From: Pseudomonas allokribbensis | GTDB lineage: Bacteria > Pseudomonadota > Gammaproteobacteria > Pseudomonadales > Pseudomonadaceae | Assembly (NCBI RefSeq): GCF_014863605.1 | Contig: NZ_CP062252.1 | Location: 5,805,501-5,869,500 of the forward strand | Direction: 5' to 3' | DNA length: 64,000 bases | Shown here: positions 28,969 through 35,236 of the stretch, one piece after another | Layout of the letters: each line of letters starts with the position of its first letter | Position numbering within the stretch: the first letter of the stretch is position 1 | The notes under the pieces: generated by a model | The model's database searches: none | What the model was told of the DNA's origin: nothing | Seen by the model: only the letters and a program-made list of their open reading frames with translations | Made by a program: the position numbers and the translations under genes

Positions 28969-29964
28969 CTATCTCGCCAGCGCCGTCGGCGGTGTCACGC
29001 CAAACCGCGCCCGATAATCGCTCGGCGCCAGCCCGGTGATTTTCTTGAAGATGGCGCGAAATGCACCCGGATCCTGATATCCCACCGTCCACGCGATATG
29101 GTCGATGGTGCCGTTGGTGAACTCGAGCATTTCCCGTGCCTTGCCGACCCGCAGGTGCTGACAGTACTCGGTGGGTTTCAGGCCGGTCGCGGCACGGAAA
29201 CGACGCAGGAATGTGCGCTCCTCCAGCCCCGAGCGCTCAGCCATCGAGGCCAGCGAAACGTCAGTCGCACCGGTGCTTTGCAGCCAGTGCTGGACCTTGA
29301 GAATCGATGCATCGCCATGGCTGAGGATCGGCGCGAAATTGCTGCCGCAGGCACTGGCGCTGTCGCTGTGTTCCATCACCAGGAACCGCGCTGTGGCGCT
29401 GGCGATGCTCGGCCCCAGCAAACGATCGACCAGCCGCAACCCCAGCTCTGACCAGGCCATCAGCCCGGCGGTGGTGATCAGGTCGCCGTCATCGACAATC
29501 GGTGTGTCGGCCTTGAGCTTGATGTCTGGATAACGCTCGGCAAACGCCTTGGCCGAGGTCCAGTGAGTGGTGGCGCTGCGACCGTTGAGCAGGCCGCTTT
29601 CGGCCAGCAGCCACGAGCCCACGCAGACGCCGCCCAGCGTCGCGCCACGGGCATGCTGATCGCGCAGCCATTGCAGCAATCCCGGCGATGTCTGCTCTGC
29701 ACTGAACCCGGCGATCGAAGGTGGGATCAGCACCGCCAGCAAGCCTGTTTCGGCTGCAGGATGACTGTCGTAAACCCTGACCGGAGCCTGTTCGTTTTCG
29801 ACCTGCCAGTGACTCACCCGCAGCCTTGGCAATTGCGCGGCCTGATGCTCGACCGCGATCCGGTCGGCCACGCCGAACAGGTCGGTCAAACCATGCACCG
29901 CCGCCAGTTGCGCACCGGGATAAATCAGCACGCCCAATTCGGCAACGGCCCTTTCAACACCCAT
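28969..29964 (-). CDS. GlxA-family transcriptional regulator (DJ-1/PfpI domain plus AraC HTH)
   Basis: A 331-residue regulator. The N-terminal half (about 8-180) is a DJ-1/PfpI-like domain with the elbow GGVCVGSWLLAESGLL and ATTHW. The C-terminal half (about 220-325) carries two AraC-type helix-turn-helices, ending in the conserved IAWTVGYQDPGAFRAIFKKITGLAPSDYRARF. Such proteins regulate amine, glycine-betaine or related catabolism. Start 29964 gives MGVERAVAELGVLIYPGA; the longer frame to 30081 runs through the promoter region. It is divergent from the cysteine hydrolase gene, its probable target. Confidence 0.9.
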   Translation of the reverse strand: MGVERAVAELGVLIYPGAQLAAVHGLTDLFGVADRIAVEHQAAQLPRLRVSHWQVENEQAPVRVYDSHPAAETGLLAVLIPPSIAGFSAEQTSPGLLQWLRDQHARGATLGGVCVGSWLLAESGLLNGRSATTHWTSAKAFAERYPDIKLKADTPIVDDGDLITTAGLMAWSELGLRLVDRLLGPSIASATARFLVMEHSDSASACGSNFAPILSHGDASILKVQHWLQSTGATDVSLASMAERSGLEERTFLRRFRAATGLKPTEYCQHLRVGKAREMLEFTNGTIDHIAWTVGYQDPGAFRAIFKKITGLAPSDYRARFGVTPPTALAR

Positions 29965-30000
29965 TGTCAGTTTTCCCCTGTCTATTGTCGGTGCGGCCAA

Positions 30001-30058
30001 TCCTCGAAGACGTAGCTGGCGCCGATACTGATTCCACACCCAACAAACACTTCGAGGA
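30001..30058 (+). promoter_or_regulatory. Long-range inverted repeat covering the ribosome-binding site of the cysteine hydrolase
   Basis: TCCTCGAAG (30001-30009) and CTTCGAGGA (30050-30058) are perfect 9-bp inverted repeats. The second includes GAGGA, the ribosome-binding site seven bases before the ATG at 30066. The pair could be a hairpin hiding the site or two half-sites for the divergent regulator. Confidence 0.45.
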
Positions 30059-30065
30059 CACACCC

Positions 30066-30620
30066 ATGGCCAGGCAAGCACTCATCGTAGTCGATATCCA
30101 GAACGACTACTTCCCCCAAGGCAAGTGGCCGCTGGCTGGCGTCGACGCTGCCGCCGACAACGCTGCCCGACTGATCGCAGCGTTCCGTGAAGCGGGTGAG
30201 CCGGTGATCCATATCCGTCACGAATTCACCTCGGCGGATGCGCCGTTCTTCACCCCGGGCTCCGAGGGCGCCAAGCTGCACCCCAAGGTGCTCAACCGCG
30301 CCGACGAACCGGTGGTGCTCAAGCACTTCGTCAACTCGTTCCGCGAAACCGAACTGCAATCGATCCTTGATGAGCAAGACATCAAGGAACTGGTGGTGGT
30401 CGGCAGCATGAGCCATATGTGCATCGATGGCGTCACCCGTGCGGCGGCGGATCTGGGTTACACCGTCACGGTGATTCACGATGCCTGCGCCACCCGCGAT
30501 CTGGAATTCAATGGCCTGACCGTGCCGGCGGCCTATGTACACGCAGCATTCATGTCATCGTTGGGTTTTGCCTACGCCAGCGTGGTCTCCGCAGACGAAT
30601 TCCTCGCCACCAGCCGTTAA
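30066..30620 (+). CDS. Isochorismatase-like cysteine hydrolase
   Basis: A 184-residue hydrolase with the full catalytic triad: Asp10 in VVDIQNDYF, Lys86 in VVLKHFVNSF and Cys119 in GSMSHMCIDGVTRAA. The family hydrolyses amides and related bonds (nicotinamide, carbamoylsarcosine, isochorismate). Lack of an isochorismate-binding partner gene makes an amidase more likely. It is transcribed away from the GlxA-type regulator, a common arrangement in Pseudomonas, and ends 31 bases before a strong terminator. Confidence 0.9.
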   Translation: MARQALIVVDIQNDYFPQGKWPLAGVDAAADNAARLIAAFREAGEPVIHIRHEFTSADAPFFTPGSEGAKLHPKVLNRADEPVVLKHFVNSFRETELQSILDEQDIKELVVVGSMSHMCIDGVTRAAADLGYTVTVIHDACATRDLEFNGLTVPAAYVHAAFMSSLGFAYASVVSADEFLATSR

Positions 30621-30651
30621 TTCTCGTGCGCGAACCTTCGCAATAGACACA

Positions 30652-30677
30652 GGCCCGCCATGTTGCGGGCCTTTTTT
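30652..30677 (+). terminator. Terminator of the cysteine hydrolase gene
   Basis: GGCCCGC, a six-base loop, GCGGGCC and six T residues form a classical intrinsic terminator on the plus strand. Confidence 0.92.
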
Positions 30678-30693: not shown

Positions 30694-30705
30694 CTCACGC
30701 GTGAG
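30694..30705. promoter_or_regulatory. Palindromic operator 1 of the yjf operon
   Basis: The perfect 12-bp palindrome CTCACGCGTGAG lies three bases upstream of a -35 box. Read on the minus strand it is flanked GG...aTT, nearly the same flanks as operator 2 on the plus strand, so the two are extended copies in opposite orientation, 46 bases centre to centre. Confidence 0.75.
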
Positions 30706-30708
30706 CCA

Positions 30709-30737
30709 TTGATGGCACTTTGAATTGGTTGTAGTGT
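30709..30737 (+). promoter_or_regulatory. Sigma70-type promoter of the yjf operon
   Basis: TTGATG (30709-30714), a 17-base spacer and TAGTGT (30732-30737) lie exactly between the two CTCACGCGTGAG palindromes. The predicted start, about 30744, falls inside operator 2. The -10 is weak (three of six, key positions kept). Confidence 0.55.
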
Positions 30738-30739
30738 GG

Positions 30740-30751
30740 CTCACGCGTGAG
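30740..30751. promoter_or_regulatory. Palindromic operator 2 of the yjf operon
   Basis: The second perfect copy of CTCACGCGTGAG covers the predicted transcription start and ends 23 bases before the yjfI ATG. A protein bound here would block initiation. Confidence 0.75.
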
Positions 30752-30774: not shown

Positions 30775-31443
30775 ATGAAAAGCAACTCCCCAGCAACAAA
30801 ATCGGAGAGCCCGAAGGGAGTACGCTCGACAACGTCCGCGAAAAAACCATCGAGTTTCTATATGAAGCAGATGCGTGCGGGCCTGGCGGCCGCCGGTTAT
30901 GTGAAACACGAAACTTGGGTGCTTCCGGAGAACCGAAGCTTGCTCAAGCAAATGGAGCAACAGCTACGCCAACCGATTCTGGCTGGCTCTTTCATGTCGG
31001 AGAATTACATGAGCGCAGGCAACAACTGGAACATCGATAGCCTCTACAACGCTTTCAAGGCACTGGACGAAGTGGCTTCGCAAGAAATCACCCTGTCCCT
31101 GATCCAGAGCTCCGAACCCAGCCTCAAGCTGGAAATGAACGAATTCGGCGGCCTGCCGATTCACATCGCCATCGCGGGTCAGCAGATCATCGTCGACACC
31201 GTGCTGGTGGACATCGATTCGATCACCGACGTGCGTACCTTCAACGATGCGGTCCTGCGCAGCCGGGAAATGTTCCCGCTGTCGTCGATCGGCATCGAGA
31301 CCATGCCCAACGGCCAGACTGTCTACAACATGTTCGGCGCGCTGAGTGCAGATTCGAGCCTGACCAACGTGGTCACCGAGGTGAAAACCCTGGTCGATAA
31401 CGTGCAGCGCGCCAGCGAAGCCTTCGAACATTTCTTCAAGTAA
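30775..31443 (+). CDS. yjfI: YjfI-family (DUF2170) protein with N-terminal RHH-like extension
   Basis: A 222-residue protein. Its C-terminal part (about 85-222; ITLSLIQSSEPSLKLEMNEFGGLPIHIAI) is the YjfI/DUF2170 domain. The N-terminal 80 residues are basic and contain YMKQMRAGLAAAGYVKHETW and VLPENRSLLKQMEQQLR (about 29-65). This looks like the strand-plus-helix of ribbon-helix-helix antitoxins of the MazE/DUF3018 type. The E. coli protein is, from memory, about 130 residues and lacks it. It is first of six genes and is preceded by two perfect palindromes, so it may repress its own operon; that is inference. The start is clear, with an ATG at 30775. Confidence 0.82.
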   Translation: MKSNSPATKSESPKGVRSTTSAKKPSSFYMKQMRAGLAAAGYVKHETWVLPENRSLLKQMEQQLRQPILAGSFMSENYMSAGNNWNIDSLYNAFKALDEVASQEITLSLIQSSEPSLKLEMNEFGGLPIHIAIAGQQIIVDTVLVDIDSITDVRTFNDAVLRSREMFPLSSIGIETMPNGQTVYNMFGALSADSSLTNVVTEVKTLVDNVQRASEAFEHFFK

Positions 31444-31460: not shown

Positions 31461-32159
31461 ATGACTCAGTCCATCTGGAACAAGTTGTTCACCGCGCTGC
31501 GCGGCGGCGCCAATGAAGTCGGCGAAGCGATCGTCGATCAACAGGCCCTGCGCATCCTCGATCAGGAAATCCGTGACGCCGACAGCGCCCTGTCCAACGC
31601 CCGTCGCGAACTGGTCACCATCATGGCCAAGCACAAGCTGTCCGCCGATCGCGTGAGCGAGTACGACGCCAAGATCAAGGATCTGGAAGCCAAGGCAGTC
31701 TCCGCCCTGAACGCCGGCCGTGAAGACCTGGCGATGGAAGTGGCCGAAGCGATTTCGACCCTGACCAACGACCTGACCACCGAGAAGGCCCAGAGCGACG
31801 AGTTCGGTACCTACGCCGACAACATGCGCAAGGACATCAACAAGGCCGAAGCGCGGATCAAGAGCCTGCGTCAGCAAGTGGACATGGCCAAGGCCCGTGA
31901 AAGCGTGCAGAAAGCGCAGGTCAGCGCCTCCATCGCCAGCGGCGGCGCCAACGGCAAGCTGGAAACCGCAGTCGGCACCCTGAACCGTCTGCAGGAGAAG
32001 CAAAAGCAACGCGCCGCCGAGCTGAACGCTCAGGACGAACTGGCCGATGCCACGACCGGCAACGACCTGGAGCGCAAACTGCGCGACGCCGGCATCACGC
32101 CGAACGAGGGCAGCGCCAACGCGATCCTCGAGCGACTGAAGCAGAAGTCGGCCCAGTAA
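31461..32159 (+). CDS. yjfJ: PspA/IM30-family protein (YjfJ-like)
   Basis: A 232-residue, almost wholly helical coiled-coil protein of the PspA/Vipp1/IM30 (bacterial ESCRT-III-like) family. The N-terminus SIWNKLFTALRGGANEVGEAIVDQQALRILDQEIRDAD carries the amphipathic membrane-binding helix and first hairpin. The coiled coil runs to about residue 190 and a variable C-terminus follows. PspA proteins assemble on stressed membranes. There are no pspB, pspC or pspF genes nearby, so this is the second, yjf-type PspA. It follows yjfI by 17 bases and is followed by a terminator. Confidence 0.92.
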   Translation: MTQSIWNKLFTALRGGANEVGEAIVDQQALRILDQEIRDADSALSNARRELVTIMAKHKLSADRVSEYDAKIKDLEAKAVSALNAGREDLAMEVAEAISTLTNDLTTEKAQSDEFGTYADNMRKDINKAEARIKSLRQQVDMAKARESVQKAQVSASIASGGANGKLETAVGTLNRLQEKQKQRAAELNAQDELADATTGNDLERKLRDAGITPNEGSANAILERLKQKSAQ

Positions 32160-32282: not shown

Positions 32283-32918
32283 ATGGGATGGTTAAAGAAC
32301 TTGCTGGGGACCCCGGCTCCAACACCTGAAGCTGTCGGCGGCCCGCTTGGCCTGGCGCAGGGCAAGGGGATCCGGTTCGATACGACGCTCGGCCTGCTGC
32401 TCGATGGCAGCACCTCGGTACGGGTTCCCGATGCCCAGGCCATCTGGAGCGCCGGCTGGATCGACCTCGGCCAGTCGAACAAGCTGCATCGCTATTACCT
32501 GAACAACGAAGATTTCTGGCTGCAGGTGCATGTCACCGGCGACGATCAGATCGAATCGGTGACGCTGTTCAATTACGTCAGCTATGTCACGGTCAACAGT
32601 GACGCCGAGCTGCAGCGCCTGGCGGGCCCGAACAGCCTGATCGGCCTACCGGCCTACACCCATGACGGCGTGTCCTTCACCCGTGAATGGGGCACCGAAC
32701 GCGGCCAGACCGAACTGGTCCCGCTCACCGAACAAGTGATCAATCCCGACGAGTCCTACACCATCGAACACCATTCGATGCTGTACGCCCGGGAAACCGG
32801 CCTGACCGACCGTCGAGAGCTGCTGCTGTTCTCCGTCGAACAGGACGAAGAAGGCACCGTCAGCCTGAGCACATCGCTGGGCATCTCGCTGTACACCACC
32901 GATCTGAGCACCATTTAA
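32283..32918 (+). CDS. yjfK: YjfK-family (DUF2491) protein
   Basis: A 211-residue soluble protein of the DUF2491 family, with FWLQVHVTGDDQIESVTLFNYVSYVTV and a C-terminal YTTDLSTI. It is beta-rich and has no signal peptide, membrane helix or known catalytic motif. The start at 32283 follows the yjfJ terminator by about 80 bases, where a TACACT -10-like element exists without a good -35. In all genomes I recall, the family is found only beside PspA-like and DUF350 genes, implying a shared process. Confidence 0.85.
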   Translation: MGWLKNLLGTPAPTPEAVGGPLGLAQGKGIRFDTTLGLLLDGSTSVRVPDAQAIWSAGWIDLGQSNKLHRYYLNNEDFWLQVHVTGDDQIESVTLFNYVSYVTVNSDAELQRLAGPNSLIGLPAYTHDGVSFTREWGTERGQTELVPLTEQVINPDESYTIEHHSMLYARETGLTDRRELLLFSVEQDEEGTVSLSTSLGISLYTTDLSTI

Positions 32919-32931
32919 AAGGAAGTTCCCC

Positions 32932-33357
32932 ATGCTGGAAGTGCTGTCCGTTTCCCTGAACAAGGCCGCGCTGGTCGGTTTCGCCGCCTACCTGATCGGC
33001 GCCGTGCTGCTGTTCATGCTGTTTCAGTTCGTCTACACCCGCATCACGCCGCACAAGGAATTCGAACTGATTCGCGGCGGCAACAACGCTGCCGCCATCG
33101 CCCTGTCGGGTGCGATCATCGGTTTCGCGATTCCGGCGAGCAACATCATCGCCCACTCGATCAACGTCCTCGATTTCGTGCTCTGGGCGGTGATCGCCGC
33201 CGCGGTGCAATTGCTGGCATTCCTGGCGACCGGCCTGGTGCTCAAAGGCACGTCCCAGCGCATCGCCAACGGTGAAGTCGCCGCCGGCATCTACGTCGCG
33301 GCGGTGGCGATCAGCGTCGGCATGCTCAACGCCGCGTGCATGACACCGTCCTACTGA
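32932..33357 (+). CDS. yjfL: YjfL-family (DUF350) inner-membrane protein
   Basis: A 141-residue membrane protein with four helices, about 15-36, 54-76, 82-104 and 117-137, arranged as the two repeats of DUF350. Conserved small-residue motifs are GNNAAAIALSGAIIGFAIP and NGEVAAGIYVAAVAISVGMLNAACM. It follows yjfK by 13 bases with a good AAGGAAG site. The family has no proven function; its constant partner genes (PspA-like, ATP-grasp ligase) suggest a membrane platform for a ligated product. Confidence 0.88.
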   Translation: MLEVLSVSLNKAALVGFAAYLIGAVLLFMLFQFVYTRITPHKEFELIRGGNNAAAIALSGAIIGFAIPASNIIAHSINVLDFVLWAVIAAAVQLLAFLATGLVLKGTSQRIANGEVAAGIYVAAVAISVGMLNAACMTPSY

Positions 33358-33374: not shown

Positions 33375-34076
33375 ATGAAACGAAGCAAGTACGTTCAACT
33401 GTCCCTGGCGGCCTCCGTGGCGCTGGCGATTTCCGGCGAAGTGGCCGCCCAGGAACAACGCAACTTCCAGAGCGTGGAACAGTGCGTTGACGCCGAAGTA
33501 GCCGCCGATGCCTGCTCGAACGCCTACGTCGCGGCCCTGACCGAACACCGGCGCATCGCCCCGGCGTATGACGATAAAGCGCAGTGCGACGCAGACTTCG
33601 CCGCCGGCTGGTGTCAGAAAAATTCCGACGGCCGCTTTGTGCCGAAGCTGGGTGGCTTCAAGGTGCCGCAGAACGTTGAGCCGGCGCAGAACCTCGATGC
33701 GATCGCCAATGCGCAGATGCCAGCGGGTGACCCGGCACCTGCCCAGACCACACAGAGCACTTCCCATGGTTCCAGTGGCGGTGGCGGTGGCGGTGGTAAC
33801 GGCTGGCTCAGCGGATGGCTGATCGGCAATGCCATGAGCAACAATCGCGCAAGCGACACGCGGACGGTCTATCGCGATCGTGACACTCGCCAGACGTACG
33901 ACACTTCGACGCTGAACCGCCGGATCGAATCGGCTCCGACGACTCGAAACGATTCGGACTACACCAGCTCCCGAAGCAAATCGGTCAACGTGGCGTCCTC
34001 GACTTCCCGTGGCGGTTTCGGCAGCCAGTCCAGTGCGCGCAGCGGTTGGGGCGGCTGGGGCAGTTCGAGCAGCTGA
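33375..34076 (+). CDS. yjfM: YjfM-family (DUF1190) exported protein with Gly/Ser-rich tail
   Basis: A 233-residue protein with a signal peptide (MKRSKYVQLSLAASVALAISGEVAAQ) and a small cysteine-bearing domain (SVEQCVDAEVAADACSNAY, AQCDADFAAGWCQ; four cysteines, probably two disulfides) matching DUF1190. It then has a low-complexity half: a seven-Gly run near residue 140, NGWLSGWLIGNAMSNN, and a C-terminal SSTSRGGFG...GWGGWGSSSS tail. It is periplasmic or surface-directed. The start at 33375 has AGGAAG upstream; the earlier in-frame ATG overlaps yjfL and would spoil the signal peptide. Confidence 0.82.
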   Translation: MKRSKYVQLSLAASVALAISGEVAAQEQRNFQSVEQCVDAEVAADACSNAYVAALTEHRRIAPAYDDKAQCDADFAAGWCQKNSDGRFVPKLGGFKVPQNVEPAQNLDAIANAQMPAGDPAPAQTTQSTSHGSSGGGGGGGNGWLSGWLIGNAMSNNRASDTRTVYRDRDTRQTYDTSTLNRRIESAPTTRNDSDYTSSRSKSVNVASSTSRGGFGSQSSARSGWGGWGSSSS

Positions 34077-34078
34077 TC

Positions 34079-35236
34079 ATGAAGAAGATCCATTGCGCTG
34101 AGCGCCCCGACTGGAAACAGACCGCCGAAAGTCTCGGCTTCCTGTTTCACACCATCGACGACGAACCCTATTGGGACGAACGCGCGTACTACCAGTTCAC
34201 GCTCGCGCAGATCGAAAACGATCTCGAGGATCCGACCACCGAACTGCACGAGATGTGCATGGACCTGGTCGACCGGGTGGTGCACAGCGAAGAGTTGCTC
34301 GATCGCCTGAGCATCCCCGCGTCGTACTACGACATGATCCGAACGTCCTGGCTGGAAGGTCATCCGCATCTGTACGGACGCATGGACTTCTCCTACAGCG
34401 GCAACGGCCCGGCAAAGTTGCTGGAGCTCAACTACGACACGCCCACCAGCCTGTACGAAGCAGCGGCGTTCCAGTGGGGCTGGCTGGAGCAATGCATCGA
34501 GCGCGGAATGCTGCCGCGCCATGCCGACCAGTTCAACAGCATCGACACCCGCCTGCACGAAGCCTTTGCCCAGCTGAAGCTCAAGCGCCCGTTCTACTTT
34601 GCCTCGATGAAAGGCTCGGTCGAGGACAAGGGCACCACGGACTACCTGCGACTGATCGCGGAAAAGGTCGGCATCGAATCACTGCACATCGATATCGAAG
34701 ACATCGGCCTGACTCCCGAGGGACGTTTTGTCGATCTTGAAGATCGCTGGATCCCGCACCTGTTCAAGCTGCACGCCTGGGAGTTCATTTTCCATGAGCC
34801 GTTCGGCGCAGCCATCGCCGAATGCGACACGCAGTTTTTCGAACCGGCCTGGAAATCCATTCTCTCCAACAAGGGCGCCCTGCCCTTGCTCTGGGAGCTG
34901 CACAAAGGCCATCCGAACCTGCTGGCGGCGCATCTCGACCCGAATCCGGGTAGCGCAGTGCCAAAAGGTTGGGTACGCAAACCGTACTTTTCCCGGGAAG
35001 GCGCCAACATCGAGCTGCAAACCGCCGACGGTCTGGTCGTCAAAGAGGACGGCCCCTACACGGACGCGCCCTTCATCCTGCAGGAATTTGCGCCGCTGCC
35101 CAAGTTCGATGACAGCTACACGCTGATCGGCTCCTGGGTGATTGGTGATCAGGCCGCAGGAATAGGCGTGCGGGAGGACAACAGTCTGATCACCAAGGAT
35201 TCGAGCCGGTTCTTGCCGCATTTGATTCTTGACTGA
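34079..35236 (+). CDS. yjfC: ATP-grasp amide ligase of the glutathionylspermidine-synthase type (YjfC-like)
   Basis: A 385-residue enzyme matching the C-terminal synthetase domain of glutathionylspermidine synthase, without the N-terminal amidase. Motifs include GRMDFSYSGNGPAKLLELNYDTPTSLYEAA (substrate and metal strand), VEDKGTTDYLRLIA, and the ATP-grasp end APFILQEFAPLP...TLIGSWVIGDQAAGIGVRED. The fold joins an acid to an amine or peptide using ATP. The real substrate is unknown: E. coli YjfC lacks confirmed glutathionylspermidine activity. It starts two bases after yjfM and ends the six-gene operon before a strong terminator. Confidence 0.9.
   Translation: MKKIHCAERPDWKQTAESLGFLFHTIDDEPYWDERAYYQFTLAQIENDLEDPTTELHEMCMDLVDRVVHSEELLDRLSIPASYYDMIRTSWLEGHPHLYGRMDFSYSGNGPAKLLELNYDTPTSLYEAAAFQWGWLEQCIERGMLPRHADQFNSIDTRLHEAFAQLKLKRPFYFASMKGSVEDKGTTDYLRLIAEKVGIESLHIDIEDIGLTPEGRFVDLEDRWIPHLFKLHAWEFIFHEPFGAAIAECDTQFFEPAWKSILSNKGALPLLWELHKGHPNLLAAHLDPNPGSAVPKGWVRKPYFSREGANIELQTADGLVVKEDGPYTDAPFILQEFAPLPKFDDSYTLIGSWVIGDQAAGIGVREDNSLITKDSSRFLPHLILD

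Follow-up and report, generated by a model that had tools for sequence, protein, structure and literature searches.

The closest described counterpart of the protein studied here is BacA, the first product of the bac operon. According to the accessible parts of Wallart et al. 2024 (PMC10948618), bac comprises six genes in one operon, for which a sigma54 site has been proposed. In delta-bacA PA14 biofilms BacB to BacF were increased 6.1-13.5-fold, and 167 other proteins were decreased in the bacA mutant. The solved part of BacA has a CesT/T3SS-chaperone fold and resembles T3SS chaperones and ExsC (same accessible text). A contact between BacA and BacB is predicted in the available part of PMC13092808, and that of PMC11237479 describes YjfI as CesT/Tir-like and placed beside PspA. 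The main text of PMC10948618, as far as accessible, makes no mention of palindromes, ribbon, DNA binding, autoregulation or EMSA. The preliminary description of the present locus knew of no described regulator for this operon in Pseudomonas. That is not quite accurate: in PA14, BacA had already been reported to act negatively on the bac operon, with neither a mechanism nor a binding site given. Among the papers listed in searches of literature mostly outside subscription journals, none was recognised as reporting the operators described below.

The window, that is the whole stretch of 64,000 nucleotides of Pseudomonas allokribbensis that was analysed, carries an operon of this kind (Table 1). 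As with BacA/PA3732 (Wallart et al. 2024; NF050185), whose loss raises the operon proteins, a DUF2170 protein is encoded ahead of a pspA-family gene. The comparison of loci suggests, with a probability of roughly 80%, that two palindromes before the operon are operators of BacA itself, which would act as an autorepressor, binding them as dimers through its N-terminal domain and blocking a sigma70-type promoter.

Palindromes and genes of the locus

Table 1. Coordinates of the features of the bac (yjf) locus, in positions of the window
Feature	Position	Strand	Remark
AraC-type gene	28969-30081	minus	near operon
Terminator-like hairpin	30651..30672	+	3' of upstream isochorismatase-like gene; consensus scan only
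Operator 1, CTCACGCGTGAG	30694..30705	.	about -50 to -39; 3 bases ahead of -35; conserved
-35 hexamer TTGATG	30709..30714	+	in 93 loci, TTGA conservation of 90% or more
-10 hexamer TAGTGT	30732..30737	+	17-bp spacer; conservation of TTG...TA...T
Operator 2, CTCACGCGTGAG	30740..30751	.	about -4 to +8, over putative start ~30744
bacA/yjfI	30775..31443	+	heads the operon; 222 aa; proposed autorepressor
N-terminal domain, BacA residues 23-66	30841..30972	+	likely related to MazE-like antitoxins; helix, short strand ~43-48, helix
DUF2170 domain, BacA residues 84-221	31024..31437	+	part solved as 8Q8O
pspA/IM30-family gene (yjfJ, bacB)	31461..32159	+	
DUF2491 gene (yjfK)	32283..32918	+	
DUF350 gene (yjfL)	32932..33357	+	
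DUF1190 gene (yjfM)	33375..34076	+	putative start codon; scanned from 33372
Glutathionylspermidine-synthase-like gene (yjfC)	34079..35236	+	putative start codon; scanned from 34076

The preliminary description had reported CTCACGCGTGAG twice in 58 bases with 46 bp between the two centres, and the coordinates confirmed both statements. The mirrored flanks it had noted are present at this locus, but the GG beside operator 2 is not kept in the clade (93-locus consensus); the base pairs retained outside operator 1 in that consensus are A/T. The bacA gene lies between an isochorismatase-like gene on one side and pspA on the other, the hairpin probably separating the operon from the former. The BacA of the window shares 99% identity with its counterpart in a Pseudomonas koreensis strain.

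The palindromes are very specific. In the 6,565,027-bp genome CTCACGCGTGAG occurs at 2 places, both within these 58 bases, and no exact copy was found beyond the pair; a scan of the window allowing up to 2 mismatches gave a single further match, carrying 2 mismatches. The looser 10-mer TCACGCGTGA has 3 genomic places. The third was set aside as an operator, being located within an HflK-like coding region, and the reversed 10-mer used as control was equally frequent (3 places). An identical pair of 12-bp palindromes less than 100 bp apart was obtained in 3 of 100 dinucleotide shuffles of the whole window; the pair alone is therefore only mildly unusual and weak evidence, and its significance comes from conservation.

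The N-terminal domain and its occurrence with the operators

The DUF2170/YjfI family (PF09938) matched BacA residues 84-221 with 150.6 bits, above the Pfam cut-off of 27 bits. The NCBIfam BacA equivalog model NF050185 matched residues 23-221 with 211 bits, below its cut-off of 300; the protein of the window thus has the NF050185 architecture but is more distant. Residues 23-66 are conserved and have no Pfam family, yet they are covered by the NCBIfam model. The Pfam scan gave no match of PF11455 (cut-off 22 bits) in this BacA at any score, and among five scanned N-domains of relatives one weak match below that cut-off was seen (L022, 14.9 bits, E 0.027). Profile comparison of the N-domain with the MazE-like family by hhalign gave a probability of 90.9 with E 1.1e-6 for one comparison, over 22 columns. 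The first ~65 residues of BacA therefore likely hold a small domain related to the MazE-like antitoxins of PF11455, which we take to be DUF3018, and its class is probably ribbon-helix-helix. The AlphaFold2 models, both monomers, were of weak confidence: about 42-57 over the N-domain in full-length BacA and a mean of 71 for the domain modelled alone, with two helices and no strand. Foldseek with the N-domain model found no chain, and in sequence searches of the PDB neither the N-domain nor the one MazE-like protein used as query had a solved relative. Ten short proteins, which are probably gene fragments, came out of a search with the N-domain by itself; eight of them were used as alignment rows. 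One protein of 80 residues (P0128) joins a BacA-type N-domain to a stretch of PF02151, presumably the UVR motif, and may also be a fragment.

The chain solved as 8Q8O has 146 residues and aligns to BacA residues 84-221 only, the N-domain being absent. In genome G1067, which is probably P. aeruginosa as judged from the 99% identity to the PA14 protein, BacA is 99% identical to 8Q8O and carries an N-domain of the same kind together with an operator pair. The reading frame permits a BacA of 206 residues with the N-domain (codon at position 1309 of L303), and an internal ATG (at 1486) gives 147 residues and loses it. The size of 16 kDa given for PA3732 (Macé et al. 2008, accessible text of PMC2587700) fits the shorter start, and we therefore infer that the N-domain was overlooked through the choice of start codon, the studied construct beginning at an internal Met. 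In the whole G1067 genome TYACATGTRA is found at 2 places, both before bacA.

The relation to MazE-like antitoxins extends to the DNA site. The set of 21 PF11455 genes came from 2 of 56 genomes in one search and 19 of 299 in another. Within 150 bp upstream of the match, TTACATGTAA was perfect in 9 of these and present with at most one mismatch in 13 (L282, L283, L285-L288, L290-L295, L302); it was missing from 8. The chance expectation before the 21 genes, from dinucleotide shuffles, was 0.03. TTACATGTAA is thus likely an autoregulatory operator of the MazE-like family, and since the same upstream site stands before both kinds of gene, the K-type BacA operator has the sequence of the MazE-like site. 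Two MazE-like genes with the strand KELRLW (L298, L299) have GTTGCGCATAAC / GTTGCGCGTAAC instead, possibly a second change of specificity.

The preliminary description had proposed a search for the pair in other Pseudomonas. BacA relatives occurred in 188 of 398 genomes of the genus, and TCACGCGTGA pairs whose copies are separated by 28-52 bases in 89; the backward-read pair gave 0 among the matches listed. Twenty of the 89 pair-bearing genomes were taken as loci (L112-L131), and all contained bacA. In total 281 loci were compiled, bacA being found in each by script, and merging of identical upstream and C-terminal sequences left 243 distinct ones. The strict site was defined as T[CT]AC(AT|GC)GT[AG]A and looked for in 250 bp counted from the start of the N-domain (long loci) or from the first matched residue (short loci), not from the start codon. 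Among the long loci, 207 of 212 kept at least one site upstream of bacA (two or more in 164, one only in 43), and among loci without the N-domain 30 of 31 had none and one had a site. These 31 include a small remnant (L268) and a decayed copy (L263); L303 and L304 enter none of the locus counts. E. coli K-12 yjfI (L111) and one Pseudomonas (L026) are among the site-free short loci. With 52 of the 243 left out as too short, the pspA gene was present at 164 of the 165 remaining long loci and at 25 of the 26 short ones.

Elsewhere in the same loci, strict sites numbered 2 in 1,327,380 bases, and both belong to long loci scored as site-less (L019, L243), where the operator-like site sits at a greater distance upstream, apparently separated from bacA by a repeat-like stretch. 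Of the other site-less long loci, L169 gave no site, and L207 has a disrupted bacA and degraded operators. The latter says little because operator 2 is also degraded in L010, whose gene is intact. The remaining one, a paralogue encoded by a second copy in G375 (L264), has the strand GFVPKEVWV and odd-centred TCAC-N-GTGA sites. A second bacA-like copy without the N-domain in G094 (L263) combines the K-type spacing of 24 bp with two GC-centred sites, as expected if the resident His-type BacA (L192, the main one of that genome) controls the copy; this is a single case.

A palindromic operator at the own promoter, as in ribbon-helix-helix autorepressors, is thus what was observed for bacA, and the earlier proposal of YjfI as candidate regulator gained support. 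Another reading is that a separate repressor reads the palindromes and BacA acts only indirectly by protein contacts, the latter having been suggested by Wallart et al. from its chaperone-like fold. The resemblance of the solved part to T3SS chaperones and ExsC (accessible text of PMC10948618) agrees with it, and an AraC-type gene lies nearby. We consider it improbable, as the operator tracks both the presence and the sequence of BacA's own N-domain across the 243 distinct loci and the MazE-like relatives bear the same operator before their own genes. Were an unlinked regulator the reader, one would moreover expect sites at that regulator's gene or at other targets; the only further TCACGCGTGA in the genome is the one in the HflK-like coding region.

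Operator type, spacing and promoter

The operator centre followed the N-domain strand. With His45 and Thr/Ala/Ser47, 119 loci had GC-centred sites only and 4 had one of each kind; with Lys/Arg45 and Val/Phe/Leu47, 84 loci had AT-centred sites only and 3 were site-less in range. His45 thus goes with TCAC-GC-GTGA and Lys/Arg45 with TYAC-AT-GTRA. A tree of the C-terminal part was built from 140 of the 210 long rows whose strand was readable, the 110 HT rows being represented by 40 drawn at random. It placed the His clade on one side of a fully supported branch, with the mixed group at its base. The operator centre switched once, via an intermediate, and the 119-to-84 split is therefore a single concordant event; the independent-pairs test on the tree offered one pair only and no significance. 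Eight positions of the domain differ wholly between the clades, and residue 45 is therefore not singled out. The intermediate clade (L238, L240, L241, L244) has His45 with one GC- and one AT-centred operator at 44-bp spacing. The operator of the window is best read as a GC-centred derivative of the K-type/MazE-like site.

The distance between sites was mostly 45-46 bp in the His clade. Most K loci have 22-25 bp and RL loci 45, 46 or 52, with a range of 15 to 52 bp across clades. The near-constant spacing in the His clade, and the fact that CesT-like dimers could bridge two DNA-bound dimers, would suit cooperative binding of BacA to both sites through a repression loop or bridge of ~46 bp. The preliminary description had raised such a loop of about 4.4 helical turns. 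We hold it to be unlikely: 46 bp corresponds to 4.4 turns, so the sites are off phase and do not face the same side of the DNA, a loop so small is stiff, the other clades are spaced as given above, and 43 of the 212 long loci show a single strict site.

The promoter proposed earlier, TTGATG-N17-TAGTGT, was found between the palindromes. The coordinates agree with the description: three bases lie between operator 1 and the -35, and the putative start, placed from the -10, falls within operator 2. This arrangement of a sigma70-type promoter with an operator on each side suits repression, as the preliminary description had held. Where the sites are 46 bp apart (93 loci), the DNA between them keeps TTGA and TGTAG, the consensus being CTCACGCGTGAGc.ATTGA...TGTAGtgT..CTCACGCGTGAG. 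A TTG beside operator 1, with TA...T at a distance of 16-18 bp, occurred in 170 of the 207 long site-bearing loci (156 of them at 17 bp) against 2.5 expected from dinucleotide shuffles. The RF-type loci mostly lack this pattern (present in 2 of 22), as do 14 of 44 KV loci. Nothing reached threshold in a sigma70 consensus scan of the region, and the promoter call therefore rests on conservation. An Rfam search of the region returned three matches, all far under the gathering scores and treated as chance. In three K-type loci (L303, L021, L023) the apparent -10 ends ~6-10 bases before the start codon, and the transcript may be nearly leaderless.

That the operon is sigma54 (RpoN)-driven like E. 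coli psp, with the palindromes as enhancer or activator sites, is considered very improbable. Putative RpoN sites have been proposed for the P. aeruginosa operon (accessible text of PMC2587700 and PMC10948618) and, with the second -12 base left free as noted for psp sites by Macé et al. (accessible text of PMC2587700), 3 of 207 loci match, two of which (L200, L221) belong to those most closely related to the 8Q8O protein. Shuffles, however, gave an expectation of 13.6 for this relaxed form (the G1067 promoter lying outside these 207), and the -24/-12 core with at most 2 mismatches in 250 bp occurred in 2 of 207 loci against 4.4 expected, so that neither the strict nor the relaxed element before the first gene exceeded the shuffled expectation. 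The sigma70-like pattern, by contrast, stands beside operator 1 in 170 of the 207, and an operator over the start site suits repression.

Proposed autorepression and comparable systems

The simplest model is autogenous repression at a sigma70-type promoter. BacA would bind each palindrome as a dimer via the N-domain, and with operator 1 adjoining the -35 and the start lying under operator 2, bound BacA would exclude RNA polymerase. BacA, PspA and the products of the downstream genes would stay low until BacA leaves the DNA. The CesT-like C-terminal domain is the likely sensor and the neighbouring PspA its likely partner, PspA being the putative signal. With the autorepressor encoded at the head of the operon that it controls, the response would in addition limit itself.

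A broader reading is offered tentatively, at somewhat less than even odds. BacA may be a one-protein envelope-stress switch in which an antitoxin-derived DNA-binding domain is joined to a PspA-binding chaperone-like pocket, so that the membrane state read by PspA sets the repression of the operon. The domain would have been missed through the internal-Met construct, and its DNA specificity would have changed a single time, from an AT to a GC centre, within one Pseudomonas clade, an intermediate with one site of each kind still living.

Autorepression would offer a concrete mechanism for the unexplained published rise of Bac proteins in the bacA mutant; that rise in the delta-bacA proteome could also be an indirect effect. 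Mutants of the bac operon, which BacA lowers, have been published as altered in biofilm, swarming and rhamnolipids. The analysis further suggests that the DNA-binding half is missing from the crystallised protein, speaks against sigma54 control as proposed, provides TTACATGTAA as a candidate recognition sequence for MazE-like antitoxins and points to a natural case in which a repressor-operator pair has changed its specificity.

Among the comparable systems, the P. aeruginosa-type operators (L303/G1067) differ from those of the window in being TTACATGTGA/TTACATGTAA, 22 bp apart, with one inside the -35/-10 spacer. The MazE-like antitoxins have a similar helix-strand pattern, ending in a Trp-containing strand, and the site before their own gene, but they are short and stand-alone, whereas BacA, the first product of an envelope operon, has the domain joined to a CesT-like one. 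E. coli yjfIJKLMC has the identical gene order, but its YjfI has 133 residues and neither N-domain nor operator. In E. coli psp (PspA/PspF/sigma54) a PspA-family protein is likewise under feedback control; in contrast, the bac loci have no sigma54 core beyond chance, and a repressor is proposed rather than inhibition of an activator. Trifunctional PutA also carries an N-terminal DNA-binding domain on a functional protein, represses its own operon and exists in versions without the domain (accessible text of PMC5293562); its partner domains are enzymes and its ribbon-helix-helix fold is solved, and it is likened to BacA by design.
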